From Arthrobacter cavernae (GTDB lineage: Bacteria; Actinomycetota; Actinomycetes; Actinomycetales; Micrococcaceae): 64,000 bases of DNA. The stretch's first letter is position 1; each line of letters starts with the position of its first letter. Below, in pieces: positions 3,896 to 17,370 of the stretch. Location: contig NZ_JAFNLL010000038.1 in assembly GCF_017368795.1 (NCBI RefSeq), positions 1-64,000 on the forward strand, given 5' to 3'. The translations under genes were made by a program, and so were the position numbers. A model generated the notes under the pieces. That model was not told where the DNA came from. It searched no databases and worked only from the letters and a program-made list of their open reading frames with translations.

Positions 3896-3982
3896 GTCGA
3901 CAAGCTTACCCGAAGATCCAGCGCCGTTCGAATCCTCCGGAGGCCGGGCGGTTTGGAATGCCCGACGGCGGGTGGTCGGGTG

Positions 3983-4342
3983 TCAGGACTCGATCGCACT
4001 GGGTGACGGCGAACCAGGCGCCAGCTGGCGGTGGGGGACGTGGTGGAAAGCATCAGGCAGGATCTCGACGACAGGGATATTCAGTGCGAACGCGATCTTG
4101 AACAGACTTTGAATGGTCGGGTTGCTGAGGCTTTTGTTGTTGCGTGCACGTTCGATGTTCTGAACTGTGTTCTTGTCCAGGCCAGCCGCGTAGCTCAGCG
4201 CTTCCTGAGTGAAACCTGCATGCTTTCGTAGCGTGCGAAGCCGCTCTGCCAGCTCAACCGCAACGACATCCCAGTCGCTATCGGGAACTTTATCGGCAGA
4301 GGGCACCCATCCAGCGTCAATTCCGGGCACATGGAAGACCAC
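3983..4342 (-). CDS. XRE-family regulator, candidate restriction-modification controller protein
   Basis: The 119-residue protein carries one Cro/C1-type helix-turn-helix (about residues 30-95: LAERLRTLRKHAGFTQEALSYAAGLDKNTVQNIE, split here as LAERLRTLRKHAGFTQEAL then SYAAGLDKNTVQNIE). A hydrophobic dimerisation stretch (LFKIAFALNIPVVEIL) follows. The size, and the position head-to-head with a restriction-modification gene, are what is known of controller (C) proteins. Boxes for such a protein lie in the 121-nt intergenic space. The GTG at 4342 has no clear ribosome site; GTG at 4330 is an in-frame alternative. The controller role is inferred. It could also be an unrelated XRE repressor. Confidence 0.8.
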   Translation of the reverse strand: MVFHVPGIDAGWVPSADKVPDSDWDVVAVELAERLRTLRKHAGFTQEALSYAAGLDKNTVQNIERARNNKSLSNPTIQSLFKIAFALNIPVVEILPDAFHHVPHRQLAPGSPSPSAIES

Positions 4343-4349
4343 CTAATAT

Positions 4350-4377
4350 ATTGGGTATTCACTCAATTTATTGGGTG
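4350..4377. promoter_or_regulatory. Candidate controller boxes between XRE gene and type ISP gene
   Basis: ATTGGGT occurs twice in direct orientation (4350-4356 and 4370-4376), spaced 20 bp, close to two helical turns. The second copy is also half of an imperfect palindrome, CACTCAATTTATTGGGTG (4360-4377, one mismatch per arm). This AT-rich patch stands out from its surroundings. Spaced repeat boxes between divergent genes are typical for XRE/C-protein autoregulation. Binding is inferred. Confidence 0.5.
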
Positions 4378-4463
4378 CTGGGTTGCTCTAGGCAATCCCA
4401 TCACGAGGGTCCGACAGCCACCGCGTTGCCGGACCCGACTTCGTTCTACGCAATGGGGATACT

Positions 4464-7400
4464 GTGTCCACGACTTTTGACCAACTGCTGGATTCGTACC
4501 GCGATCTTGCCGATTCGGAACGGATGAAGGGCAGCTATTTCGAGCAGCTCATCGAGCAGTACCTCGAGAACGACGGCGTCCAGGCTCCGCAGTACACGGA
4601 CGTCTGGCTGTGGCGGGACTGGCCGGGCCGCGACGGCAAGCCGGATACCGGCATCGATCTGGTGGCCGAGCGGGCCGACGGCGGAATCACGGCGATCCAG
4701 TGCAAGTTTTACGCCGCGACACACACCATGCAAAAGCACGACATCGACTCCTTCATCTCCGCCTCCGGCAGGGAGCCGTTTACTCACCGGTTGATTGTTT
4801 CGACCACATCCAAGTGGACCCAAAACGCCGAGGAGATGCTGGACAGCCAGCGAATTCCAATCCAGCGGATCGGGCTCTCTGACTTCCGTCATTCCAACAT
4901 CGACTGGGCCACGTACACGCTGACGGACCCCCAGAAGGCGCCCAGGCTGCATGAGAAGAAGCAGCTGCGCGCCCACCAGCATGAGGCCGTCTCGGCGGCA
5001 TTGAAGGGCTTCGAAGCCGACGACCGGGGCAAGCTGATCATGGCCTGCGGCACGGGCAAGACGTTCACGGCCCTGAAGATCGCCGAACGCTTCGCCGAGG
5101 CCGAGGGCCACGCGCGCATCCTGTTCCTCGTCCCGTCCCTGGCGCTGATGTCCCAGTCCCTGAAGGAATGGTCGGACGAGACGCGGCAGCCGATGCACGC
5201 TTACGCGGTGTGTTCGGACGTGAAGGTGGGCCGTCAGAAGAACGCCGACCTGACCGACGTCGCGATCCATGACCTGCAGATCCCGGCCACCACCGACGGC
5301 AAGACGCTCGTCGAAGCGATGGGCAGGAAGGAACTGGACGAGGGCATGACGGTGGTGTTCTCCACGTACCAGTCCATCGAGGCCATCGCCGAGGCCCAGC
5401 GGGCCGGCATGCCCGACTTCGATCTCATCATCTGCGACGAAGCCCACCGCACCACCGGCGCCACGCTCGCCGGCACGGAGGAGTCCCACTTCGTCAAGGT
5501 CCACGACAACAGCAAGATCGCGGGTGCCAAGCGCCTGTACATGACCGCCACGCCGCGGCTGTTCAACGACGACACCAAGAACGCGGCCCTGGAGAAGGAC
5601 GCGATCCTGTGCTCGATGGATGATGTGGAGCTGTACGGGCCGGTGTTCTACCGGATCGGCTTCGGTGAGGCCGTGACCAAGAAGCTGCTCAGCGACTACA
5701 AGGTGCTGGTGCTCGGCGTCGATGAGAGCCAGGTGGTCTCCAGCTTCCAGGACCAGCTGTCCGACTCGAACATGGAGCTGCAGATCGATGACGTCGCCAA
5801 GCTGATCGGCTGCTGGAACGGGCTCGCGAAGCGCCGCTCCGGGGAGTTCGAGTCCTCCTTCGGGACCGACTGGCAGCCGATGCGCCGGGCCGTGGCGTTC
5901 AACCGGGACATCAAGTCCTCCAAGCTCGTCGAATCCGAGTTCGAGGAACTCGTCCGCGTGCACCTGACCAACCTGGAGAACGACGACCCGACCGATGACC
6001 TCAAGGTGGAGGTCAGGCACGTCGACGGCGGCTTCAATGCCGTCTCGCGGGCGGAGCGTCTGGATTGGCTCAAGGAAGAGGTAAACCACGACGGCGGCCA
6101 GCCCACCTGCCGGATCCTCAGCAACGCGCGGTGCCTCACCGAGGGCGTGGACGTGCCCTCCCTGGACGCGGTGCTGTTCCTGAACCCGCGCAATTCCATG
6201 GTGGACGTGATCCAGGCCGTCGGCCGGGTCATGCGCATCGCCAAGGGCAAGCAGTTCGGCTACATCGTGCTGCCCATCGCGATCCCGTCCGGCATGTCCA
6301 CCTCCGAGGCCCTGAAGGACAACGCCCGGTACAAGGTGGTGTGGCAGGTCCTGCAGGCCCTGCGCGCGCACGACGAACGCATGGATGCCGCGATCAACCA
6401 GATCGAACTGAACAAGAACGCCCCGGAATCGATCCTGATCGAGACCGTGGACCTGGCGCCGCAGAAGAAACCCGGCCTCATTGACCCCCGGCCGACACCG
6501 GACCCGGACAACCCCGGAAAGCAGGAGTACGTCCAGCCCACGCTCCAGTTCCCGGCCGCCGAATGGAAGGACTCCGTCTACGCCAAGATCGTGGACAAGT
6601 GCGGCAACCGCATGTACTGGGAAGACTGGTCCAAGGACATTGCGGCCATCGCGAATAAGCACATCGTCCTGGTCAACAACCTGCTGGATCACGCCGATTC
6701 CGGATTGCGCACGGCATTTGACCTGTTCGTTGTTGGTCTCCAGGAAATGCTAAACCCGGCCATCGACGAAGCCCAAGCGGTGGAGATGATGGCGCAACAC
6801 CTGATCACTAAGCCCGTCTTTGACGCCATGTTTAAGGGTCACCAATTCACAGAGTTGAATCCGATCTCTAAGGCAATGCAGGACACGATTGATCTGCTCA
6901 ACGCAAACGCAGCGTTTGAAAAGGAACGATCTTCCCTGGACGTGTTCTACGCGTCGGTCAATGCGAGAGTTGAGAAGATCGACAACGCTGCCGCCAAACA
7001 GGCGATAATCAAGGAGCTCTACGACAAGTTCTTTGAGAACGCGTTTCCCCGCGTCGCTGAGCGGCTCGGAATCGTCTTCACGCCGGTCCCAGTAGTCGAC
7101 TACATCCTCCGTTCGGCGGACGCCGTTTTGCGGGCTGAATTTGGAAGCTCCTTGTCCGGCGAAGGCGTATCTATCATTGAGCCTTTTGTCGGGACTGGCA
7201 CATTCGTCACCCGCCTTCTCCAGCTCAATCTGATCAAGCCCGAAGACCTGCACCGGAAGTTCACGAAGGAAATCTTCGCCAACGAGATCGTCCTCCTTAG
7301 CTACTACATCGCCGCCATTAACATTGAAACCGTCTTTGCCGAGGAGGCCGACAGGCACGGGCTGGGTCTCGGCTATGTGCCGTTCGATGGGATCTCACTG

Positions 7401-9284
7401 ACGGACACATTCCAGTTGGATGAGGGCGACGGCCAGTTCGACAACCCTGCCTTCCAAGTGAACTCCGAGCGCGTCAAGCGTCAGCAGGCGCAGGATATTC
7501 GGGTTATTGTCATGAACCCGCCCTACTCCGCGGGCCAAACCAGTGCGAACGACAACAACCAGAATCTGAAGTACCCACGCTTGGACGCGTCTATCGCCGA
7601 GACTTATGCCAAGTTGTCCACGGCAACCAACAAGAACAACCTCTACGACTCCTACATCCGCGGTATCCGATGGGCCTCCAACCGCATCAAGAACGACGGC
7701 GTGATCGCCTTTGTCTCCAACGGCAGCTTCATCGACGGCAACACAGCGGACGGCATCCGCAAGACCTTCGCCACCGAGTTCAGCCGGATCTTCGTATACA
7801 ACCTCCGGGGCAACCAGCGCACTTCAGGCGAAGTGTCCCGCAAAGAAGGCGGCAAGGTCTTCGGCAGTGGTTCCCGCACGCAGGTGGCCATCTGCATCCT
7901 CATCAAGAATTCAGCCAGCACGGGTCCAGCGGACATCCAGTACCGGGACATCGGCGACTACCTCACCCGCGAACAAAAACTCGACATCCTCGAAATCGAG
8001 CAGTCCCTCGAAGGCACTGACTGGGAAACTATCACCCCGAACGAACACGGCGATTGGATCAACCACCGCGACGACCGCTATGACACCTTCCAAGCCATCG
8101 GGGACAAGGCGACCAAGGGCAAGCCAGGCACGCCCGGGATCTTCGAGAACTACTCGTCAGGTCTGAAAACCAACCGTGACGCCTGGTGCTACAACTTCAG
8201 CCAGGTTGCCGTCGAATCGAACATGCGCCGCACGATCGACTTCTACAATGAACAACTGTTGACAGATTCTCCGAGTAACGACGCCACCAAAATTGCCTGG
8301 GGTGGAAGTCTGAAAGATGACCTTAAGCGTGGAACGCATCTGGAATACGAGCAAGGGGCATTGCAGGACTCGATATATCGTCCTTTTTGTCGGCAAACGG
8401 TCTACTACTCCGGAAGCATGAACGAGCGTCGGTATCAGCTCCCAAAACTGTTTCCAACCCCAAATCATCCGAATATCGCGCTGTACATGAGCAGCCCCGG
8501 AGCATCCAAGATCTTCAGCCCATTGGTCGTCGACTGCGTCCCAAATCTGCACCTCGTTCACACCGGTCAGGCGTACAGCCTATACACCTATGAGCCGATC
8601 TCTACCGAAGCGCAAGGTGACCTCTTCGCTGATGCTGAGGGTGTCGTCGTCGACGGCTACCGCCGTAAGGACAACATTACTGACGTAACACTGAATACTT
8701 ACCGCGGTTTCTACGAGGACCCGGCCATCAACAAGGAAGACATCTTCTACTACGTCTACGGGATAATTCATTCCCCGGCGTACCGCGAGAGCTACAAAGC
8801 CGACCTGCAGAAACTGCTGCCGCGGATTCCCAAGGTCAAGGACTTCCGGGGCTTCAGCACGGCCGGCCGGGAACTGGCTGAGCTGCACCTGAATTACGAA
8901 ACGGTGGAGCCGTATCCGTTGGAGGAGATCGCTCAGGGTACGCCTGAAGGCGATGAGTACGACTTCTACCGGGTCAACAAGCTGTCCTTCGGCGCCCGCA
9001 AGGACCGCTCGCGCATCATCTACAACGCGCGCATCACCCTCGCTGGCATCCCGGAGGAAGCTTTCGACTACCAGGTCAACGGCAAGTCGGCGCTGGAGTG
9101 GATCATCGACCGCTACCAGGTCACCACCCACAAGGATTCACAGATCACCAACGACGCCAACGACTACTGCCGCGAGATCGGCGACCCCCGCTACATCCTG
9201 GACTTGATCAAGCGGATCGTCACGGTGTCGGTGGAGACGAATAGGATCGTGGCCAAGCTGCCGGAATTGGAGATTGCGGAATAG
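4464..9284 (+). CDS. Type ISP restriction-modification enzyme (nuclease-helicase-methylase-specificity fusion)
   Basis: One 1606-residue polypeptide carries all restriction and methylation activities, as in LlaGI/LlaBIII, whose length is about the same. Domain order seen: Mrr-like nuclease (D65 with QCK 79-81), SF2 translocase (Walker A CGTGKT ending at T200, DEAH 325-328, TATPR 361-365, motif VI QAVGRVMR 584-591), a helical coupler (about 650-870), an N6-adenine methylase (FVGTGTF with G910-T911-G912; NPPY at 1018-1021), then a target-recognition region (about 1150-1600). All key residues are present and the frame is open, so it should be active. Start GTG 4464. Base composition changes inside the gene: about 6,700-7,500 and 8,230-8,600 are more AT-rich than the helicase part, suggesting mosaic origin. 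A divergent XRE gene probably controls it. Confidence 0.93.
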   Translation: MSTTFDQLLDSYRDLADSERMKGSYFEQLIEQYLENDGVQAPQYTDVWLWRDWPGRDGKPDTGIDLVAERADGGITAIQCKFYAATHTMQKHDIDSFISASGREPFTHRLIVSTTSKWTQNAEEMLDSQRIPIQRIGLSDFRHSNIDWATYTLTDPQKAPRLHEKKQLRAHQHEAVSAALKGFEADDRGKLIMACGTGKTFTALKIAERFAEAEGHARILFLVPSLALMSQSLKEWSDETRQPMHAYAVCSDVKVGRQKNADLTDVAIHDLQIPATTDGKTLVEAMGRKELDEGMTVVFSTYQSIEAIAEAQRAGMPDFDLIICDEAHRTTGATLAGTEESHFVKVHDNSKIAGAKRLYMTATPRLFNDDTKNAALEKDAILCSMDDVELYGPVFYRIGFGEAVTKKLLSDYKVLVLGVDESQVVSSFQDQLSDSNMELQIDDVAKLIGCWNGLAKRRSGEFESSFGTDWQPMRRAVAFNRDIKSSKLVESEFEELVRVHLTNLENDDPTDDLKVEVRHVDGGFNAVSRAERLDWLKEEVNHDGGQPTCRILSNARCLTEGVDVPSLDAVLFLNPRNSMVDVIQAVGRVMRIAKGKQFGYIVLPIAIPSGMSTSEALKDNARYKVVWQVLQALRAHDERMDAAINQIELNKNAPESILIETVDLAPQKKPGLIDPRPTPDPDNPGKQEYVQPTLQFPAAEWKDSVYAKIVDKCGNRMYWEDWSKDIAAIANKHIVLVNNLLDHADSGLRTAFDLFVVGLQEMLNPAIDEAQAVEMMAQHLITKPVFDAMFKGHQFTELNPISKAMQDTIDLLNANAAFEKERSSLDVFYASVNARVEKIDNAAAKQAIIKELYDKFFENAFPRVAERLGIVFTPVPVVDYILRSADAVLRAEFGSSLSGEGVSIIEPFVGTGTFVTRLLQLNLIKPEDLHRKFTKEIFANEIVLLSYYIAAINIETVFAEEADRHGLGLGYVPFDGISLTDTFQLDEGDGQFDNPAFQVNSERVKRQQAQDIRVIVMNPPYSAGQTSANDNNQNLKYPRLDASIAETYAKLSTATNKNNLYDSYIRGIRWASNRIKNDGVIAFVSNGSFIDGNTADGIRKTFATEFSRIFVYNLRGNQRTSGEVSRKEGGKVFGSGSRTQVAICILIKNSASTGPADIQYRDIGDYLTREQKLDILEIEQSLEGTDWETITPNEHGDWINHRDDRYDTFQAIGDKATKGKPGTPGIFENYSSGLKTNRDAWCYNFSQVAVESNMRRTIDFYNEQLLTDSPSNDATKIAWGGSLKDDLKRGTHLEYEQGALQDSIYRPFCRQTVYYSGSMNERRYQLPKLFPTPNHPNIALYMSSPGASKIFSPLVVDCVPNLHLVHTGQAYSLYTYEPISTEAQGDLFADAEGVVVDGYRRKDNITDVTLNTYRGFYEDPAINKEDIFYYVYGIIHSPAYRESYKADLQKLLPRIPKVKDFRGFSTAGRELAELHLNYETVEPYPLEEIAQGTPEGDEYDFYRVNKLSFGARKDRSRIIYNARITLAGIPEEAFDYQVNGKSALEWIIDRYQVTTHKDSQITNDANDYCREIGDPRYILDLIKRIVTVSVETNRIVAKLPELEIAE

Positions 9285-9310
9285 TTGGAGGTCCTCCGTG
9301 GCGGAATAGG

Positions 9311-9462
9311 GCGGCCGGTTCCTCGTAGGGGTGGCCGCTTGCTCGCAGGGGTGAGCGGCCCGCAATGCCCGCACGACGCCGTCGAGCACTTCACCGGACC
9401 CCACGAACTCAATCCGGATCTCCGGGACCTGCTCACCCATGCCAGTTGCTCCGATGAACGGC
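9311..9462 (-). pseudogene. Fragment of a COG3323 (NIF3 insert/CutA-like) gene
   Basis: On the minus strand this encodes a recognisable C-terminal half of the small protein encoded intact at 14628-14951. It contains PFIGATGMGEQVPEIRIEF and VLDGVVRALRAAHP, against PFIGDVGTGEQVPEIRVEC and MLDGVVRALRAAHP in the intact copy. The 5' half is missing, replaced by a strong hairpin. The 3' end is altered, with an internal partial duplication of the AGGGGTG-containing stretch. It is therefore a remnant, not a functional gene. Confidence 0.75.
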
Positions 9463-9497
9463 TGTGGCCCCGGTCCATAAGGACCGGGGCCACAGCC
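9460..9497. terminator. Strong hairpin between convergent genes
   Basis: A perfect 17-bp stem (GGCTGTGGCCCCGGTCC at 9460-9476 with its complement at 9481-9497) closes a 4-nt ATAA loop. It lies between the end of the type ISP gene and the end of the haem peroxidase gene. No clear U-tract follows on either strand, so it is a probable rather than certain bidirectional terminator. Confidence 0.7.
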
Positions 9498-9522
9498 GTG
9501 GATGCTCGGTGACGCCCTGTGC

Positions 9523-12500
9523 CTAGGGAACGGGGGGTCCGAACTCATTGTTGAAGCGGAACAGGAACGCCGCAGTTGCGTCGCGGTGTACGGGCTCAAA
9601 CGGGTGGAACGTGCCATCCGGGAAGCCGGTGGTGATGCCGCTTTGTGCCAGCCATGAGACTTCCAGGAAGAACTGGGAGCTCGGGGTCATGTCGCTGAAG
9701 GGCGATACTGCCGGGGCCGTGAAATCCGGTTTATCCGCCAACCGGAAGAGGAACGCAGCCATGTCCTTGCGGTTCACCGCCAACTCCGGGTGGAACGTGC
9801 CGTCCGGGAAACCGGTGGTAATGCCGGACTGCAGGAGCCAGGTGATCTCCTTGTAGAACATGTGGTTCGTCGGGAGGTCGGCGAAGGGTGATACCGCCGG
9901 CGGCGTGAACTCAGGCGAGCCGGAGAACCGGAACATGAACGCCGCCATCGCTGCGCGGCTCACCGAGTCCAGAGGCCGGAACGTGCCATCCGGGAAACCG
10001 GTGGTGATACCCCGATCCGCAAGCCACGAGATCTCCTCGAAGAACTGGTGGGAAGGCGGAACATCGGAGAACACGGTTACAGGCTCTTCTTCCTCCGCGC
10101 CCTCGATGTCGAGCACGCGTTCCGGGAGGTTCTGCGCGTTGGTGTTGCGCATGAACAGCGCGGCGAACGAGTCGTTCCTCAGCGCCGAGCGGAGGTTGAT
10201 GTCGTGCGTCCGGAGCAGGTAGTAGAAGCGGTCGCCGTTCTGGAGCTCGGTCAGCTGGGTCTCGAAGACGAAGTTGAACGTGGTGCCGAGCAGGCCGCCG
10301 GAGGGGTCGCGCTTCTCAGCGAGCCCACCGACCCAGAGGTCGACGTTGTTCAGGCCGGTCTCCTGGGTTGCCCACGCCCCGGTGCTGTTCATGAAATTCA
10401 GCTGTTCAGCGGTGGGGGAGTTCACGATGGCCTTGGCCGCTGCCCGCTTGCCGGCGAACGTGGTTTCGCTGGTGATGGTCGGGAAGGTGCCGTAGGCCGC
10501 GACGAAGTTGATGAGCGACCCCGGGTGCCTGATGCCCTGTCCGAAGTCTGCCCAGCTCGTGTAGGGAGTCAGCCGATCATCACCCGTGAGGAGGCTGAAC
10601 TGGCGGCGCACCTCATTCAGGCGTGGGATGCCGATGTCGCGACCGCGGGTAATGTTGAGCGACGCCAAGTCCAGGGGCAGACCCACCAGATTATTGCGGA
10701 GAGTATCGGTCACGAACTCGTCCAGGTCGTTTCCAAGCTGCTGGCTCATTCCCATGACGATGCTTCCGGCGGCCTCTCGCGGGGTGAGGGGTCCTGCGCT
10801 GCCACCGTCCGTGAAGGCGGGCGGGTTCAGGAAGCCGTTCAGCAAGGGGATGGAGTTGTCGCTGCCGTCCGCATTGGTGCGGGCGATTGTCTCGTCAAGC
10901 AGTGAGTGCCCGAAGCGGTAGACCGCGTTGGCGAACTCAGCCTTGATGGCCGCATTGATGCTCGGGTCATATTCGTCGAACTGCGGGATGTCCGGCGAAA
11001 TCTTGCGGGCGAATTCCTGGAACGTGATGTGCTGGTACTCCATCTCCGTCACGAAGCGGGCCGCCTGGAACAGCCGCTCGCCGTTCCAACCGTCGGCACC
11101 GTCTGCCAGCTTCCACTCAGCCAGTGCAGCAGCGCCAGATCCCGAGGTGTCGTTGGTGAGGGTGTTCTTGATGTCCTCCAGCAGACGGTTGTGCTCGGAG
11201 TGGAAGGCCTGGTGAACGGTGACAAGACCGATGTTCTCGTTGGCCCGTCCATCACCGGCCATGAAGTGCGCATTCAGCATTTCGTCGTCGTACGTGCCGG
11301 CAGGCTGGCTGGCGAAGTCGGCCGAAGCCCCGTCGTCGGGCGGATCAGCCACGAGGCCGGGATTCGGCGCCGCGTTGTGGGCGATATCCGTCAGGAACGG
11401 AGTGTTGAAGGTCAACACATTGCCGGGCACCGGAACAGGTGCTCCGATGTTGCCCTCGACGAGTCCCGTCGCGGTGACGTACTGGGGGAGGCCGCGTTGC
11501 GGGCCGGGGATGAACTTGCCGTAGGCGTCAGCCGCCATCATGGGGACGCTGAAGACGTCCTGGTCCACAAGCTCGAGGCCGAGCAGCTCTTTGGACTGCT
11601 TCTTGAGGTCGGCCCAGGTAGACATGCCGCCGGCGGTGGGGCCTGCCGGGCCAGTGAGCAGACCGCCCGTGGACACCGGCAAGCCGTGCGTGTTGTTGAC
11701 GTACTTGCGCAGGAACACCTGGTGGGAAGGATGGGAGGAATACGTCTGTGACTGGTCGACAAATGGTGAGTCACTGTTGACCGTGTCCTGGACGTCATCG
11801 GCGTCGCCCATGATGCCGTTGGGGCCGGGCTGGTTCAGCGCCCGGGTCAACACCATGAAAGCCTTGTTCGCCGGCACCTCGTCACCCGTGCCGGGGATGC
11901 CGTCCCGGCCCACCGTGCGGAGCGGGTCATCGCTCTTGAGGGGCACGAACACACTTCCGCCGCCCTTAAGGGTCTGGTCCAGGCCGTGGTCGACGAACTG
12001 GCCGAAGAGGGTGAACATCGAGTTGTATTGCGACGGATCCTCAACGCTTGGGACGTTCGGGATGAACAGGGTCTCACCGGGGCTTCCCGTTTGTCCGGCA
12101 GCCGCGACCGCCGCGGGGTTGGTGGAGGTCTGGTCCACGATCAGGTTGCTGATCTGGCGGGGGTGGCTGTCGAAAACAAAGCCGGACTTTTGCTTGTACG
12201 ACGTTGGCGAGCCCGCAGGCCCAAATACCGGAGGAAAGCCCGGAGGGACCGCTTCCGCGTCCCTGAACGTCGGCACAGTCAACCGCGGGAATAGCTGGTC
12301 TGCGGTGCCGAATTTCTCCTGCCCCGGGACCAGGTTATTGCAGGAGCCATCGACCGTGCGGAGTCCCAACGGCGCCAGCACGTCGGGAACCTGGTTGGGG
12401 CCGCTGCCGACGAGCGCCCCGCACAGGCCGGTGGCCGACGTGGTGTTCTGGACATGGGCCTCCGCAATCTTGATCTGCTTCAGAATGAAGGCCAGGTCCG

Positions 12501-12747
12501 AGGCCCTCACCCTGAAGCTGGGGTCGTTGACCACGCCCTGCGGCAGCGTTGCCTGCGCCGGAGCTGCCACTATCGGCAGCCCCAGGCCTACGAGAAGCAT
12601 GGGCGTCGCGATTACGGCGGTGGCCCGCTTCAGCAGCGGGCCGCGCCGATGGCGGGTGCCGCGCTGCATGGTTTTTTGTGAAACATTTCCGGGGCCCGTG
12701 TACTTTCCAAGGGCTCGGCTGACAAACGGAATCCCCCCGGTGACCAT
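9523..12747 (-). CDS. Secreted animal-type haem peroxidase with three C-terminal S-layer-homology repeats
   Basis: The 1074-residue protein has a long N-region and a hydrophobic signal core (about 43-66, ending APAQA). The catalytic domain is of the animal (peroxidasin/cyclooxygenase) superfamily: the distal motif FGQFVDHG with H254, a WNGERLFQAARFVTEMEYQHI block, and a proximal YRFGHS motif. Residues about 890-1070 hold three SLH-like units, each with GITTGFPDGTF. Such repeats attach proteins to the cell surface. Predicted role: extracellular haem-dependent oxidation of organic or halide substrates. Start ATG 12747 is preceded by TTTGGAGGAG; an internal ATG at 12669 has a poorer site. It is monocistronic and flanked by fragments of a COG3323 gene. 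The physiological substrate cannot be read from the sequence. Confidence 0.9.
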   Translation of the reverse strand: MVTGGIPFVSRALGKYTGPGNVSQKTMQRGTRHRRGPLLKRATAVIATPMLLVGLGLPIVAAPAQATLPQGVVNDPSFRVRASDLAFILKQIKIAEAHVQNTTSATGLCGALVGSGPNQVPDVLAPLGLRTVDGSCNNLVPGQEKFGTADQLFPRLTVPTFRDAEAVPPGFPPVFGPAGSPTSYKQKSGFVFDSHPRQISNLIVDQTSTNPAAVAAAGQTGSPGETLFIPNVPSVEDPSQYNSMFTLFGQFVDHGLDQTLKGGGSVFVPLKSDDPLRTVGRDGIPGTGDEVPANKAFMVLTRALNQPGPNGIMGDADDVQDTVNSDSPFVDQSQTYSSHPSHQVFLRKYVNNTHGLPVSTGGLLTGPAGPTAGGMSTWADLKKQSKELLGLELVDQDVFSVPMMAADAYGKFIPGPQRGLPQYVTATGLVEGNIGAPVPVPGNVLTFNTPFLTDIAHNAAPNPGLVADPPDDGASADFASQPAGTYDDEMLNAHFMAGDGRANENIGLVTVHQAFHSEHNRLLEDIKNTLTNDTSGSGAAALAEWKLADGADGWNGERLFQAARFVTEMEYQHITFQEFARKISPDIPQFDEYDPSINAAIKAEFANAVYRFGHSLLDETIARTNADGSDNSIPLLNGFLNPPAFTDGGSAGPLTPREAAGSIVMGMSQQLGNDLDEFVTDTLRNNLVGLPLDLASLNITRGRDIGIPRLNEVRRQFSLLTGDDRLTPYTSWADFGQGIRHPGSLINFVAAYGTFPTITSETTFAGKRAAAKAIVNSPTAEQLNFMNSTGAWATQETGLNNVDLWVGGLAEKRDPSGGLLGTTFNFVFETQLTELQNGDRFYYLLRTHDINLRSALRNDSFAALFMRNTNAQNLPERVLDIEGAEEEEPVTVFSDVPPSHQFFEEISWLADRGITTGFPDGTFRPLDSVSRAAMAAFMFRFSGSPEFTPPAVSPFADLPTNHMFYKEITWLLQSGITTGFPDGTFHPELAVNRKDMAAFLFRLADKPDFTAPAVSPFSDMTPSSQFFLEVSWLAQSGITTGFPDGTFHPFEPVHRDATAAFLFRFNNEFGPPVP

Positions 12748-12874
12748 GGCTCCTCCAAAGGATGCGCGTTGGCGGTGGTATTCCCAGCTATGTCAAGGAT
12801 GGCCCTCAGAGCCAGGGAAAACAACCTTTCGCGGGGCCTGAACGCGTTGCGGGCCACAGCAGAGAGAATCAGTG

Positions 12875-12955
12875 CCCGTTCATCGGCCAGCTCATGAACG
12901 CCGGCCCCTCATAAGGGTGGGCGGCGCGCGGGGCCCGCATCACGCCGTCGAGCAC
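12875..12955 (-). pseudogene. Second fragment of a COG3323 gene (C-terminal end)
   Basis: The minus strand encodes VLDGVMRAPRAAHPYEGPAF then MSWPM, which matches the last 30 residues of the intact 107-residue protein at 14628-14951 (MLDGVVRALRAAHPYEEPAF, MSWPV). Only this end is present; it stops abruptly at 12955, where unrelated sequence begins. It lies upstream of the haem peroxidase gene. The fragment at 9311-9462 lies downstream of it in the same orientation. Confidence 0.75.
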
Positions 12956-12968
12956 GGGCGTTAGCTAT

Positions 12969-13136
12969 GTGACGCTCCTGCAGGATGCTGTCAGCGGTGT
13001 GGACGCCGCCCACCAGGCACTTGCGGCGCTGCGCGACCTTGACGCCATGGTCGTTGCGCTCGATCCCGGCTACGTCACCCGAAGTGAAATCGCGGAGCGC
13101 CTGGGTGCGATCCGTCAGGCCAGCGGCAAGCCGGCG
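12969..13136 (+). pseudogene. Truncated 5' part of an unrecognised gene
   Basis: A GTG-initiated frame of about 56 residues has ordinary codon composition for a real gene (LLQDAVSGVDAAHQALAALR, then YVTRSEIAERLGAIRQASGK, which looks like a helix-turn-helix). It then runs into the antisense end of the VanY remnant, where the reading becomes non-protein-like. I read it as a gene start cut off by the neighbouring remnant. It could be a DNA-binding protein, but it is too short to name. Confidence 0.4.
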
Positions 13137-13540
13137 CTACGGCAGATAATCCGGCACGTCCTTAAGCCCGAAGTACCGCTCCAGCGTCGTGATTCCCTTG
13201 GCCTTCATATCCGCGGCCAGCTCCACACCCACAAACCGCAGATGCCACGGCTCAAATGCACAGCCCGTGATGCTTTGCGCCCCGGCCGGGTACCTGACAA
13301 TGAACCCGTACTTCCAGCCCTCGTCCGCCGCGAAGCGCCAGGCCGGTGTGTTGTCGAAACACGCCTGCAGCGCACACACGCCGTTGGCGTTGCCGATGTC
13401 CATGGCCATCCCGGTCTGGTGCTCGCTGTAGCCGGGACGGGTGGCCAGGGTGTCCGCCGTCGCCTGCCATATTGTGCCACGTAGTTGGTGTAGAGGCTCT
13501 GCTGCTCCGCGTAGGACCGGTACCCGCTAATCAAGTCCTC
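13137..13540 (-). pseudogene. VanY-type D-Ala-D-Ala carboxypeptidase, frameshifted and 5'-truncated
   Basis: Two minus-strand frames together spell a VanY/peptidase M15B domain. One frame gives ISGYRSYAEQQSLYTNYVAQ (start near 13534). The shifted frame gives LATRPGYSEHQTGMAMDIG and, further on, EPWHLRFVG, ending at TAG 13137-13139. The zinc-binding SxHxxGxAxD motif and the second His motif remain, but they are split from the N-terminal part by a frameshift around 13450-13475. The expected signal peptide and N-terminal lobe are absent. An active enzyme of this family would trim the terminal D-Ala of peptidoglycan stems. This copy should be dead. Confidence 0.8.
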
Positions 13541-13659
13541 CCGTCAGGTACGTCCAACGATGGGGTGACTGTACCCCGGGCGCAGGGCACCGACAATCCT
13601 CATTGTCGGGATGGAACAAAGACCCGTCCCACGACTCAGTATTCAGACGGCTCCGAAGG

Positions 13660-14550
13660 CTAGGACAATGGCCCGTTGCGGCGGCGCAGGTCGAAAATTT
13701 CCCATGCTTGGGGTATCAGGTCGAACGCCACGTCGCACATGCGCCGAAGCTGTTCCATTCCTCCGGCTTGGAACGCATCATCTTCGGCCTGGCCGCGCGC
13801 GTCCTCGAAACCGCTTCCTTCGGCTGTCGTCCACTCCAGCCCGTGGGAGTATCCGCTGCAGAACTGCCAGGCATAGATCAGCCCAGGAGGCAGCCCGCTG
13901 CCGGAACGCAGCTCCTTGAGAATCGCTGTCTCCGTGCGGTTCTTGGTTGCATATCTCCAGCTGCCGTCGTCTTTCTGGCGGAACATCGGGGGCAACCGCA
14001 AGGCTTCCGCTGATGAATTCAGCGCCTGGCGGAGGCCGTCAAAGTAATCCGTCGCCTCAGCATGCCGCTCCGGGTGGAACTCACCAAGGTAGGCGTCCCA
14101 GAACACGGCAGCGCTGAACACCTCCCGGGATACGAGCACCAGGCCCCGCCGCGCGCGTTCGCCTGCGCTCTCCGGCAAAAGTGCCCACAGCACCGTCGCC
14201 GTGCACTCAATGATGGTGCGCACGAGGGCATATGGCGCATGGGTCTGACTTCGGAAGTAAACATTCCCCTCGGGCGCCTCGATGAACAGGAGGCGCCGAA
14301 GTGCCTGCAGGTTGTCCATCGCGGCCACGAGCGACTGCTTCAGCAGATGGCTTACGCTGCGTGACGAACTGAACCGGTCATCCAACAAGTGAAGAGGCGA
14401 ACCGTTCTCGACTCGGCCAACGTTCATTTGCCGGTCGCAGAGCGAGTCCAGAGCCTTCATGCGGTCAAAGATGATTTCCGCGGCGCGGCTTTCTTCGTCT
14501 GCCCCGTCCAGCGATCCCGCAGAGTCAAGAGGTATTTGCCTATCGTCCAC
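13660..14550 (-). CDS. Hypothetical protein, largely helical
   Basis: A 296-residue protein that I do not recognise. It has no signal peptide and no clear transmembrane segment; it is rich in helix-forming stretches (SRSVSHLLKQSLVAAMDNLQ; VRTIIECTATVLWALLP), with scattered aromatic and His residues near the C-terminus (WQFCSGYSHGLEWT). Codon use is normal for the genome. It stands alone between a pseudogene and a COG3323 gene, so context gives no functional hint. Length and frame integrity make it a believable gene. Confidence 0.65.
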   Translation of the reverse strand: MDDRQIPLDSAGSLDGADEESRAAEIIFDRMKALDSLCDRQMNVGRVENGSPLHLLDDRFSSSRSVSHLLKQSLVAAMDNLQALRRLLFIEAPEGNVYFRSQTHAPYALVRTIIECTATVLWALLPESAGERARRGLVLVSREVFSAAVFWDAYLGEFHPERHAEATDYFDGLRQALNSSAEALRLPPMFRQKDDGSWRYATKNRTETAILKELRSGSGLPPGLIYAWQFCSGYSHGLEWTTAEGSGFEDARGQAEDDAFQAGGMEQLRRMCDVAFDLIPQAWEIFDLRRRNGPLS

Positions 14551-14627
14551 GCAGTGATCCTAGCTCTCCGGCGGTCGCGGCGGGAAAGACCGCCGTCGGC
14601 GGTCGCGGCGAGGGGGTCAGGCGAACG

Positions 14628-14951
14628 TTACCGCCACCCGTCCACCGGCCAGCTCATGAAGGCCGGTTCTTCGTAAGGGTGGGCTGCCCTCAGAGCCCGC
14701 ACCACGCCGTCGAGCATGTCCTCCTCCACCACGCACTCGACCCTGATTTCGGGCACCTGCTCGCCTGTCCCCACGTCGCCGATGAATGGCCGTGCGCCGG
14801 GCAGGGGAGTGAAACGCCCGGTGCCCGGAGAGGTGAAGGCGCAGTGCGAATAGTCGCCGATCCGGCCCGCTCCGGCATCGCCGATGGCACCCAGAACCGC
14901 CTCGGCATGGGTCTGCGGAACGTACACGACGAGGGCATGCAGCTGGGTCAT
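14628..14951 (-). CDS. COG3323 family small protein (NIF3 insert / CutA-like fold)
   Basis: The 107-residue protein matches the PII/CutA-like domain found inserted in NIF3/YqfO proteins: ALVVYVPQTHAEAVLGAIGD near the start, GAGRIGDYSHCAF, RPFIGDVGTGEQVPEIRVE and AAHPYEEPAF near the end. Stand-alone versions are widespread and of unknown function; metal or small-ligand binding is suspected from the fold. This is the intact member of three related copies in 5.6 kb. The two others, at 9311-9462 and 12875-12955, are partial. Start ATG 14951. Confidence 0.85.
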   Translation of the reverse strand: MTQLHALVVYVPQTHAEAVLGAIGDAGAGRIGDYSHCAFTSPGTGRFTPLPGARPFIGDVGTGEQVPEIRVECVVEEDMLDGVVRALRAAHPYEEPAFMSWPVDGWR

Positions 14952-14991
14952 GGCAACATCCTGCCATTTCCGGCTGGAGCGGGGACCGGTC

Positions 14992-15031
14992 TTCGCTGGA
15001 ATACATGCCTATTCGCTGGAATACATGCCTA
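14992..15031. repeat. 20-bp tandem duplication
   Basis: TTCGCTGGAATACATGCCTA is present twice head to tail without mismatch (14992-15011 and 15012-15031). It lies between the divergent COG3323 gene and the PA/LVIVD-type gene, about 100 nt upstream of the latter. A replication-slippage duplication is the simplest explanation. A paired binding site is possible. Confidence 0.85.
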
Positions 15032-15128
15032 AAGGAGAATAACAAGTCATCCAAATATGCAAGACGGGGTTATAGAGTCTTTCATGTTCGCCCAGACGTA
15101 ACTAATTGGATCCACACCAAGGAGTGTC

Positions 15129-16997
15129 ATGGCTAAGCTATCTGTTAGACGCGGTGCGTTGGTGCTGCTCTCAGTCGCCGGACTGATCCTCGCAGCAACG
15201 CCACTAGCCTCAGCGCAACCCGGCGACGACGGTGCGGTGTCGGTTGACGACGGCGCCCGCGACGCCCACCAGCACGGCACCACGGCCGGTCATTTGCCGG
15301 CAACCCAATCCAACGTGGACCTCATCTCCAAACTGAAACTGAAGAACGCGGTCCCGGAGAAGATCGCCGATGTCGGCGTCTTCAAGGACTACGCTTACCT
15401 CGCCGCGTGGGGTGCCGTCGACTGCAAGTACAACGGTATCCACGTGGTCAACATCAAGGACCCCGCAAGCCCGAAGGAGGTTGCCTTCATCCAATCCAAG
15501 GAGGGCAGCTACCCGGGCGAGGGAATTCAGACCCTGCATGTGGGCACGCCTTCCTTTACCGGCGATCTGCTGGTGAGCAACAACGAGAAGTGCAAGGACA
15601 ACGCAGGCTTCGGCGGCATGAACCTCTATGACGTGACGAACCCTGAGCACCCCACGCCACTGGCCGAGGGCGTCGGCGACTCCACGGTCAACGGTCAGGG
15701 CAAGAAGGCGGCCAACGAGATCCACAGTGTCTTCGCCTGGGATGCCGGCGACAAGGCGTACGCGGTCATCGTGGACAACGAAGAGGGCGCCGACGTCGAC
15801 ATCATGGACATCACCGACCCGAAGAAGGCCTTCCTCACGGCCGAATATGACCTCGACCAGACGTTCCCGCAGATCCTGCAGAGCGCGCCGTCGAACCTGA
15901 CCGAGGTGTTCCTGCACGACATTATCGTCAAGGAGATCGGCGGCAAGCAGGTCATGCTCCTGTCCTACTGGGATGCCGGCTACGTGGCCGTTGACATGAC
16001 CGACGTGCATAACCCCGTCTACCTCGGCGACACGGACTTAACCAACCCGGACCCGGAGCTCCTCGAGTCGACCGGACTGTCGGAGAAGCCTGAAGGCAAC
16101 GGTCACGAAGCCGAGTTCACGCTGGACAACAAATATGTAATCGGCGCCGACGAGGACTTCTCGCCCAGCTCGGCAGAGGGGGTCACGGACGACACCGCGA
16201 CTCCGTATCAGGCCTCGCAAGGCAGTGATACCCCGCAATTGCAGGGCGGGCAGTCGCTGGCTGGCGACGCAGTCTACGTGGGTCGTGCATGTATAGGTGA
16301 TGCTGCTGTTCCACCCGCTCCGACTACGGCGAGCGGCAAGCAGATCGCAATCGTCACCCGTGGCCTCTGCACGTTCACGGAGAAGGCCGCAAGAGTGGAC
16401 ACGCTTGGCTATGAGGGCATGGTAGTGGTCAACCGTGAAGGCTCCGACGCCTGCGGCCTGTTCGGAATGACCATAGCCGGCAACACTCCCGCGTTCTCGG
16501 TGGACCGCAAGACAGGATTCGGGTTCTTCGACAAGGAAGGCTTGTACGACAACGCGGCCTGCCTGGCCGGCGCGGCCAGCGAGATTCCCGGCGTGAGCCT
16601 GGGCGACGTCGGCGACGTCGTCACGCTCCGTGCGATCTTTGACGGATGGGGCTACGTGCACCTCTTCGATAACTCGGCGGGCAAGATGGCCGAACTGGAC
16701 ACCTATGCCATCCCCGAGGCGCACGACCCGGCCTTTGCGGAGGGCTTTGGCGATCTCTCTGTGCACGAGGTGGCCACGTCGCACCAACGGAATGACCTGG
16801 CGTACTTCTCCTACTATTCCGGAGGATTCCGCGTAACCAAGATCGTTGACGGCAAGCTGGTTGAGGCCGGCCGCTTCATCGATGAGGGCGGAAACAACTT
16901 CTGGGGTGTCCAGGTGTTCGAGAAGGACGGCATCGAATACGTTGCCGCGAGCGACCGTGACCACGGGCTCTACATCTTCCGGTACACCGGAGGCTGA
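15129..16997 (+). CDS. Secreted beta-propeller (LVIVD-type) protein with a PA domain
   Basis: The 622-residue protein begins with a clear Sec signal peptide (KLSVRRG, hydrophobic core, cleavage after ASA at about residue 29). LVIVD-like propeller repeats are visible as GIHVVNIKDPASPKEVAFI, MNLYDVTNPEHPTPLAEG and YVAVDMTDVHNPVYLGD. Residues about 340-490 resemble a protease-associated (PA) domain (IAIVTRGLCTFTEKAARVD; GMVVVNREG). The propeller closes with FRVTKIVDGKLVEAGRFI and YVAASDRDHGLYIFRY. It should be extracellular; the role is unknown, with protein interaction or substrate capture suspected. Start ATG 15129 has AAGGAG at the right distance. It is monocistronic. Confidence 0.85.
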   Translation: MAKLSVRRGALVLLSVAGLILAATPLASAQPGDDGAVSVDDGARDAHQHGTTAGHLPATQSNVDLISKLKLKNAVPEKIADVGVFKDYAYLAAWGAVDCKYNGIHVVNIKDPASPKEVAFIQSKEGSYPGEGIQTLHVGTPSFTGDLLVSNNEKCKDNAGFGGMNLYDVTNPEHPTPLAEGVGDSTVNGQGKKAANEIHSVFAWDAGDKAYAVIVDNEEGADVDIMDITDPKKAFLTAEYDLDQTFPQILQSAPSNLTEVFLHDIIVKEIGGKQVMLLSYWDAGYVAVDMTDVHNPVYLGDTDLTNPDPELLESTGLSEKPEGNGHEAEFTLDNKYVIGADEDFSPSSAEGVTDDTATPYQASQGSDTPQLQGGQSLAGDAVYVGRACIGDAAVPPAPTTASGKQIAIVTRGLCTFTEKAARVDTLGYEGMVVVNREGSDACGLFGMTIAGNTPAFSVDRKTGFGFFDKEGLYDNAACLAGAASEIPGVSLGDVGDVVTLRAIFDGWGYVHLFDNSAGKMAELDTYAIPEAHDPAFAEGFGDLSVHEVATSHQRNDLAYFSYYSGGFRVTKIVDGKLVEAGRFIDEGGNNFWGVQVFEKDGIEYVAASDRDHGLYIFRYTGG

Positions 16998-17370
16998 GCA
17001 GGCACTCTCGAGTGGGCGGGGCCGCCGTGCCTTGGGCGCGGCCGCCCCGTCTCCGCGCGATCGGGACCGTCCCCGGATCGTCGTCGGATACTTTTGTCTG
17101 GTTGTTCCATTGCATATCCGCAGAGCAGGGCGGAACATGGGGTATGTACACCGATTGGGGCAATCTCCTGATTGTGAGCTGTGGGGCCTGGGTGCGAGAC
17201 CCGGACCCGGCAGCTCAACGGTGGACCGCAGGAATGGGCGCATTGGGGGCGTCCATTTTTTCGTTAACGAATCAGGCCGGCGCCGGGCCCGCTGCGGATC
17301 GCCTGAACCCCCGATTGGGTGATGCGGAAAATGTCAGGTACAGTGGAACCTGCTTTTGATTCAGAAGCAA
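16998..17370. other. Intergenic stretch without a supported gene
   Basis: The 373 nt between the PA/LVIVD-type gene and the tRNA gene contain several overlapping open frames, but none has a ribosome site with convincing protein composition. I see no strong hairpin and cannot name a promoter with confidence. The last part must contain the tRNA promoter. Confidence 0.6.

Follow-up and report, generated by a model that had tools for sequence, protein, structure and literature searches.

A compact animal-type haem peroxidase with an SLH trimer, probably derived from a long peroxicin, at an insertion hotspot of Arthrobacter cavernae

Bacterial animal-type haem peroxidases include the long peroxicins, which the available excerpt of PMC4420034 describes as large fusions with PERCAL motifs and haemolysin-type repeats and with an unknown role. 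The Arthrobacter proteins B8HDW8 and A0JUB7 are placed among the bacterial peroxicins in PMC3396595; in the accessible part of that paper, PepA of Pseudomonas putida has low peroxidase activity, with a Michaelis constant (KM) for peroxide of 13 mM, and its authors mention unpublished detection of the protein on the cell surface. MopA of Erythrobacter is, in the excerpt of PMC6247904, a heme peroxidase with PERCAL inserts and conserved lactoperoxidase ester residues that oxidises Mn(II) and requires calcium, and its authors doubt a peroxidase role. Here we describe a gene for a 1074-amino-acid relative of these enzymes in Arthrobacter cavernae (assembly GCF_017368795.1, contig NZ_JAFNLL010000038.1, positions 1 to 64,000; this 64,000-nucleotide stretch is called the window). 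We favour, as somewhat probable, the reading that the gene encodes a secreted, wall-held haem peroxidase that would oxidise small reductants, and that it arose from a long RTX peroxicin by loss of the RTX and fibronectin-like middle and was inserted at a hotspot.

The open reading frame (ORF) covers exactly 9523-12747, as the initial annotation had given it without naming a strand, and lies on the minus strand. It begins with ATG, has GGAGGA immediately 5', and lies in an open frame of 1089 codons. The protein matched the Pfam families PF03098 (An_peroxidase; 224 bits, E 3.7e-66, cut-off 25) and PF00395 (S-layer homology, SLH; 123 bits over three stretches, E 4.4e-36, cut-off 20.8). With the family-model search and a complete set of catalytic residues, the assignment to the animal-type haem peroxidases that had been made from the letters alone was borne out. 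Read by eye, a hydrophobic signal-like stretch ends at about residue 66, with Met27 as a possible later start. Some twelve linker residues separate residue 880 from the first SLH repeat. A promoter scan found none, and the terminator scan did not flag the hairpin directly 3' of it (Table 1).

Seven lactoperoxidase-type residues are present (Q250, D253, H254, R501, E504, H614 and N698), and all of them are invariant in the 20 aligned rows. R501, E504, H614 and N698 align with R255, E258, H351 and N437 of lactoperoxidase, respectively (3erh chain numbering). The profile match to 8s6c reached E 7.7e-49, and the distal motif aligns with the same entry in a weakly matching segment (16 bits). Both of the catalytic His motifs that had been claimed were recovered, the distal one as QFVDH (H254) and the proximal one as RFGH (H614), and at the residue level H614 and N698 pair as a predicted proximal His with its Asn partner. 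Because the ester residues D253 and E504 are present, a covalently bound haem is suggested. Asn505 occupies what we take, from the motif, to be the position of the myeloperoxidase Met. The initial annotation had proposed a surface-bound oxidant generator. A lactoperoxidase-like form of this idea, in which hypohalous acid or hypothiocyanite would be made at the wall against competitors, fits the complete distal Gln, Asp, His and Arg/Glu set and the closest solved sequences, those of lactoperoxidase and peroxinectin A. PepA, a bacterial relative that has been studied, argues against it by its low activity and high KM, and the oxidant would form on the cell's own wall, so that we regard this role as quite improbable.

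For wall attachment, the three repeats were examined one by one, and each scored above the family cut-off on its own. The sequence GITTGFPDGTF occurs exactly three times, so the repeats noticed at the start correspond to three PF00395 repeats. Aligned to Sap of Bacillus anthracis, and judged by residues named in the excerpt of PMC6081394, the SLH-Gly29 and SLH-Arg43 positions are kept in all three. Within the same genome the trimer shares 75% identity with the one on a small surface protein (C62), 73% with that of a paralogous peroxidase (C139), 70% with that of a protein on C68, and 63% with that of the multicopper oxidase on C139. Long matches in the other genomes, of Arthrobacter and other genera (59 searched), reached 48-56%, and one short piece of 53 residues is 60% identical in G018. 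Since identities to these four trimers are 63-75% and at most 56% in long matches elsewhere, the anchor is of a local type; among 204 genomes of the genus, 37 have SLH proteins as such. Attachment to the wall through the trimer is likely, as judged from these residues.

Of 206 genomes of the genus, 60 have a homologue of residues 1-882 (E <= 1e-50), at 70 loci counting that of the window. The earlier description of such peroxidases as patchy in bacteria was fair, although the family is present in those 60 genomes of a single genus. Apart from the window locus, 68 of 69 lie in frames of 1,515 amino acids or more; the sole shorter one (G192, 937 amino acids) has a tail that fits nothing in the relatives and has no SLH repeats. 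In G205 a frame of its own holds the N-terminal part. The peroxidase genes of L148 (G192) and L149 (G205) are interrupted in terms of their frames. An RTX-like tract (four or more patterns) was present in 40 of the 42 frames read, a list in which G192 and six other genomes are counted twice, and the two exceptions are a single broken gene (L056 and L148, both from G192). Pfam confirmed RTX in C139, L131, L059, L155 and L160.

The long forms end in SLH repeats, LGFP repeats, Ig-like Big_5 domains or a hydrophobic tail. Within the genus, SLH ends were found at eight or more loci (the window, C139, G135, G116, G111, G095, G082 and G115, the last cut by the contig end after one repeat), LGFP ends by pattern at L054/L158, L060 and L062/L159, a Big_5 end by Pfam at L131, and hydrophobic tails by eye at L160 and L161. 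The protein of L155:972-6146 ends in LGFP repeats (PF08310, five stretches), an alternative wall anchor in the place of SLH.

In a tree of 57 rows, 55 of them different, from which L069, L115 and L053 were left out, the window row falls in a supported set (96) of 12 rows whose other 11 members are long forms. Six of these 11 were read to the end, and none has SLH repeats. The remaining 39 rows of the genus clade group without C139 (support 85, not starred), and SLH forms of the A. oryzae type lie elsewhere, apart from the window peroxidase. The SLH label changes at least three times on the tree, with rows whose C-terminus was not read counted as SLH-less. The catalytic part is closest, at 73-74%, to proteins of other species. 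By its place among the long forms, the catalytic domain appears to descend from the long forms of the genus. Relatives on plasmids are all below 60% identity, and none of 64 records covers 80% of the query. On the Bosea plasmid NZ_CP017947.1 (L147), the peroxidase relative shares a stretch with an Nramp metal transporter gene and a response regulator gene.

The insertion itself is well supported. From dnaX to tRNA-Ser the distance is 13.6 kb here and 230-978 bases in 32 of 35 relatives of the same genus, with 1.7 kb (G023 and G008) and 8.0 kb (G005) in the other three; a 36th relative, G019, matched neither of the two queries. Five further genomes, chosen for NIF3-related genes that best match the scars or are doubled, also carry inserts there, of 1.5 (G123), 3.3 (G180), 5.0 (G184), 8.2 (G070) and 9.6 kb or more (G066), which makes the site a hotspot that is not peculiar to the source genome. 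The window peroxidase is absent from that stretch in all five. The sister at this site, G184, is 87-92% identical in the longest flanking alignments and holds there the small signal recognition particle (SRP) RNA, a small gene whose frame is open from its ATG, the remnant of a VanY gene, the 296-amino-acid ORF (89%), a NIF3-related gene (91% of residues), an LVIVD-type protein (93%) and, as its only counterpart to the restriction gene, 64 bases that match the 3' end of that gene at 82% identity. G184 has no peroxidase at the site and no PF03098 match in its whole genome.

Because NIF3-related fragments lie at both ends, in the same orientation, a block of about 3.7 kb (about 9285-12954) carrying the peroxidase gene is bracketed. 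The downstream fragment is best matched over its whole length in G070 (77%; up to 80% over parts), and the upstream one is 91% identical to G123 and 90% to G184. With 72% (downstream) and 84% (upstream) identity to the resident gene, the fragments seem to stem from other versions of it. A fresh target duplication at the borders was considered and disfavoured by these same values. The small gene is cut at 12955, where the upstream fragment lies. With these fragments near both gene ends, the VanY remnant and the truncated small gene, the initial annotation was right to speak of a scar zone, and the acquisition it thought probable is upheld as an insertion, given the length of the stretch and the absence of the block from G184. 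Neither G123 nor G184 has any PF03098 gene, so neither is shown as a donor of the peroxidase; since G184 is the sister at the site, the upstream fragment may equally be a remnant of the native lineage, and a move of the block from elsewhere in the same lineage is possible. A tRNA or integrase-type attachment site was also weighed as the origin of the scars; a scan of proteins within and near the block, which did not extend to the whole window, revealed no integrase. At L145:8582-9295 (G180), a second, partly broken NIF3-related copy adjoins an intact one, so that such scars recur in another species.

Several observations weigh against the favoured reading. The window peroxidase has no RTX-like pattern and no PF00353 match, lies on a long branch (0.59) that makes its exact place in the tree unsure, has lost a loop in which most relatives have two Cys, and matches the PERCAL motif G-x-D-G-x-x-[GN]-[TN]-x-D-D (PMC3396595, excerpt) exactly in neither of its two inserts; the insert at residues 308-318 has an exact counterpart in the C139 paralogue and in L131-L135. 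The excerpt of PMC6247904 names five calcium ligands of lactoperoxidase, Asp110 among them; four have plausible counterparts (S327, F329, D331 and S333) in an alignment that is too weak to suffice by itself (score -1.2), and the fifth position is Gly255, directly after the distal His. With the RTX tract lost and no exact PERCAL motif, calcium dependence may have weakened. AlphaFold models from shallow 20-row alignments had mean predicted local distance difference test (pLDDT) scores of 43 for the whole protein and 49 for the core, and Foldseek with these low-confidence models gave no match at E <= 0.001. In the anchor, SLH-Trp13 is absent from all three repeats (Gln, Met and Gln stand there, with Phe adjoining), as is the Glu of TRAE. 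The two CsaB-like PF04230 proteins of the genome scored 58 and 33 bits against TIGR03609, whose cut-off is 213, and PF04230 also matches in 8 of 14 control genomes. The fifth SLH protein of the genome, on C60, is 43% identical to the trimer, so the local type covers most and not all of its SLH proteins. At the level of sequence, the holding function first ascribed to the repeats is supported by the trimer and its conserved Gly29 and Arg43, while Trp13 is missing and the CsaB-like matches lie far below the cut-off. The 64-kb window also has no multicopper oxidase. Given the long branch, the degenerate PERCAL inserts, the losses of Cys loop and RTX tract, and no such oxidase in the window, the function of this copy may have drifted.

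The long branch, the losses of RTX tract, loop and exact PERCAL motifs, and the broken genes around would suit a decaying or non-catalytic duplicate that was kept as a surface protein or is not yet lost. By the Nei-Gojobori (NG86) method, whose values are rough here as synonymous divergence (dS) is high, nonsynonymous divergence (dN) from G079 was 0.18 and dS 0.78, a dN/dS of about 0.23. The ratio was about 0.23 against three near relatives and 0.05-0.06 among those three, though the C139 paralogue gave 0.22-0.25 against the same three, so that the window peroxidase does not stand alone in its higher ratio. A full-length open frame, seven of seven catalytic residues kept, dN well below dS, and three SLH repeats above the family cut-off all speak against decay, and we consider a decayed duplicate possible and unlikely.

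The C139 paralogue of the same genome (1699 amino acids, L122:8694-13793) has RTX and fibronectin type III (fn3) domains between its head and its SLH anchor. At L122:8694-16753 (G000:C139), this peroxidase and a 722-amino-acid, bilirubin-oxidase-like multicopper oxidase adjoin in convergent orientation, and both carry SLH trimers. A multicopper oxidase adjoins the peroxidase at nine of 28 other loci (C139, L131-L136, L050 and L052), on the same strand in seven of them, and none was found within the available flanking DNA at the remaining 19, which comprise the A. oryzae branch, Chloroflexi, Micromonospora, Devosia, Methylocystaceae and the short contigs L051 and L053. At L131-L136 and L050 the two genes are consecutive on one strand. 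In L131 a molybdopterin oxidoreductase gene flanks the peroxidase opposite the multicopper oxidase, and this stretch aligns with L132-L136. No SLH pattern was found in the oxidases of the other eight loci. The closest PDB match of the C139 oxidase is bilirubin oxidase (E 5.5e-94), followed by CotA, and its copper-binding His motifs are kept.

Multicopper oxidases are the other known class of bacterial Mn oxidases, and this association raises the possibility that the peroxidase is a MopA-like Mn(II) oxidase bound to the wall and would, with or without the SLH-anchored multicopper oxidase, help to deposit Mn oxides at the cell surface. MopA itself, the adjoining oxidases, the transporter gene near the Bosea relative, and the Mn(II)-oxidising Arthrobacter isolated from Antarctic soils, in a study that measured peroxidase activity in its strains (PMC8533519, excerpt), all point that way. 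MopA is calcium-dependent, yet the window copy has neither an exact PERCAL motif nor an RTX tract; no multicopper oxidase lies in the window; and the excerpt of PMC8533519 ties Mn oxidation in A. oxydans, a different strain, to released reactive oxygen species and names no gene of the peroxidase family. The C139 oxidase resembles enzymes that do not favour the idea either, as bilirubin oxidase and CotA act on phenolic donors. We therefore offer this role only tentatively.

Under the favoured origin from a long peroxicin, the RTX and fibronectin-like middle would have been lost and a local-type SLH trimer joined directly to the catalytic domain, with the direction and timing of this fusion being our proposal, and the gene would have been inserted into the hotspot between the small SRP RNA and the NIF3-related gene. 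The protein, a member of the peroxidase-cyclooxygenase superfamily, would be exported by its signal peptide and hold haem through two ester links to Asp253 and Glu504. His254 and Arg501 would take up peroxide to form compound I, as in the chemistry of the family, and one-electron oxidation of small reductants would follow at the wall, with phenolics or Mn(II) the most likely substrates and peroxide removal a benefit. Gly29 and Arg43 of the SLH groove would bind an acidic wall polymer.

A broader and more speculative proposal is that Arthrobacter relatives have an interchangeable surface-oxidase system, in which one peroxidase head and the multicopper oxidase that partners it pass between wall anchors (SLH, LGFP, Ig-like and hydrophobic tail). 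In this lineage both classes of enzyme would be fixed by related SLH trimers as a wall-bound Mn(II)- or phenol-oxidising layer, and the window gene would be a stripped-down, separately spreading part of it; we hold this to be a doubtful idea. If the favoured reading is right, a large RTX-bearing bacterial peroxidase can be reduced to a catalytic head and a wall anchor, and the gene is a compact one for testing the role of a widespread, little-studied group of enzymes. The ancestral pairing with a multicopper oxidase makes the keeping of both surface-oxidase classes testable in one soil bacterium.

Table 1. Features of the peroxidase gene, its protein and the surrounding insertion site (window positions).
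Feature	Position	Strand	Basis
Secreted animal-type haem peroxidase gene with C-terminal SLH trimer, 1074 amino acids (predicted)	9523..12747	-	Domains and open frame
N-terminal signal peptide region, residues 1-66	12550..12747	-	Read by eye; cleavage guessed after AQA
Peroxidase core, residues 225-878 (best PF03098 stretch 492-737)	10114..12075	-	Pfam and profile match
Distal His254 (QFVDH; Q250 and D253 adjoining)	11986..11988	-	Alignment
Degenerate PERCAL calcium insert GRDGIPGTGDE, residues 280-290	11878..11910	-	Motif comparison
Degenerate PERCAL calcium insert GPNGIMGDADD, residues 308-318	11794..11826	-	Motif comparison
Catalytic Arg501 (RxxE; ester Glu504 after it)	11245..11247	-	Alignment
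Proximal His614 (YRFGH)	10906..10908	-	Alignment
Asn698, partner of proximal His (LDLASLN)	10654..10656	-	Alignment
SLH repeat 1, residues 893-935	9943..10071	-	E 1.3e-13
SLH repeat 2	9757..9888	-	E 8.1e-11
SLH repeat 3	9583..9702	-	E 3.3e-9
Strong 18-bp hairpin without T run, possible terminator	9459..9498	-	z -6.9; directly 3' of the peroxidase gene
Insertion hotspot, small SRP RNA/dnaX to tRNA-Ser(GGA)	3899-17370		Comparison with relatives
Single-chain Type ISP restriction-modification enzyme, 1606 amino acids	4464-9284	+	Domain and system scan
NIF3-related gene fragment, residues 56-97; downstream border of inserted block	9333..9473	-	72% nucleotide identity to intact copy
Second NIF3-related gene fragment (copy 1), residues 79-105; upstream border	12875..12954	-	84% to own intact copy
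Small-gene remnant; weak, below-cut-off YdaS-like match in G184	12955..13121	+	Open from ATG in G184
VanY-type carboxypeptidase gene remnant	13140..13409	-	PF02557, 8.6e-13
296-amino-acid ORF; no Pfam, NCBIfam or PADLOC match	13660-14550	-	89% identical in G184, same site
Intact resident NIF3-related gene, 107 amino acids	14628..14951	-	PDB 2gx8 NIF3-related protein, E 5.2e-30
Secreted-looking 622-amino-acid protein, PA domain, weak choice-of-anchor B match	15129-16997	+	93% identical in G184

Compared with known systems, what is new is the combination of a short head with this anchor and its arrival at an insertion hotspot; the kind of peroxidase and the anchor are each known. By titles and abstract openings, no SLH-anchored animal-type peroxidase was found in the open-licence literature among the matches listed. 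Lactoperoxidase and peroxinectin A (8s6c, 6erc), the closest solved sequences, share the catalytic residues and domain order, whereas they lack the SLH repeats and the bacterial inserts, and directly after the distal His lactoperoxidase has Asp where the window peroxidase has Gly255. The SLH domain of B. anthracis Sap belongs to the same family as the window trimer and shares Gly29 and Arg43; compared with the trimers of Sap and of P. alvei SpaA, the latter compared by description, the window trimer is without Trp13 and the TRAE Glu.

Among peroxidases with an SLH anchor, those of A. oryzae CC159, Arthrobacter sp. Y81 and their kin (L059, L061, L151, L152 and L154) likewise have a C-terminal SLH-like trimer. 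They differ in being about 50% identical, in falling on another branch, for those included in the tree, in keeping RTX, and in having diverged SLH repeats. The C139 paralogue joins the peroxidase domain to an SLH trimer that is likewise of the local type (73% identical); its catalytic part is 62% identical, and it keeps the RTX and fn3 domains and exact PERCAL motifs. The long peroxicins MopA and PepA, compared by description, share the peroxidase domain with inserts at PERCAL-like sites. They run to 1,600-3,300 amino acids and carry RTX, whereas the window peroxidase has 1074 amino acids, degenerate PERCAL inserts and no RTX, and its SLH trimer directly follows the catalytic domain.

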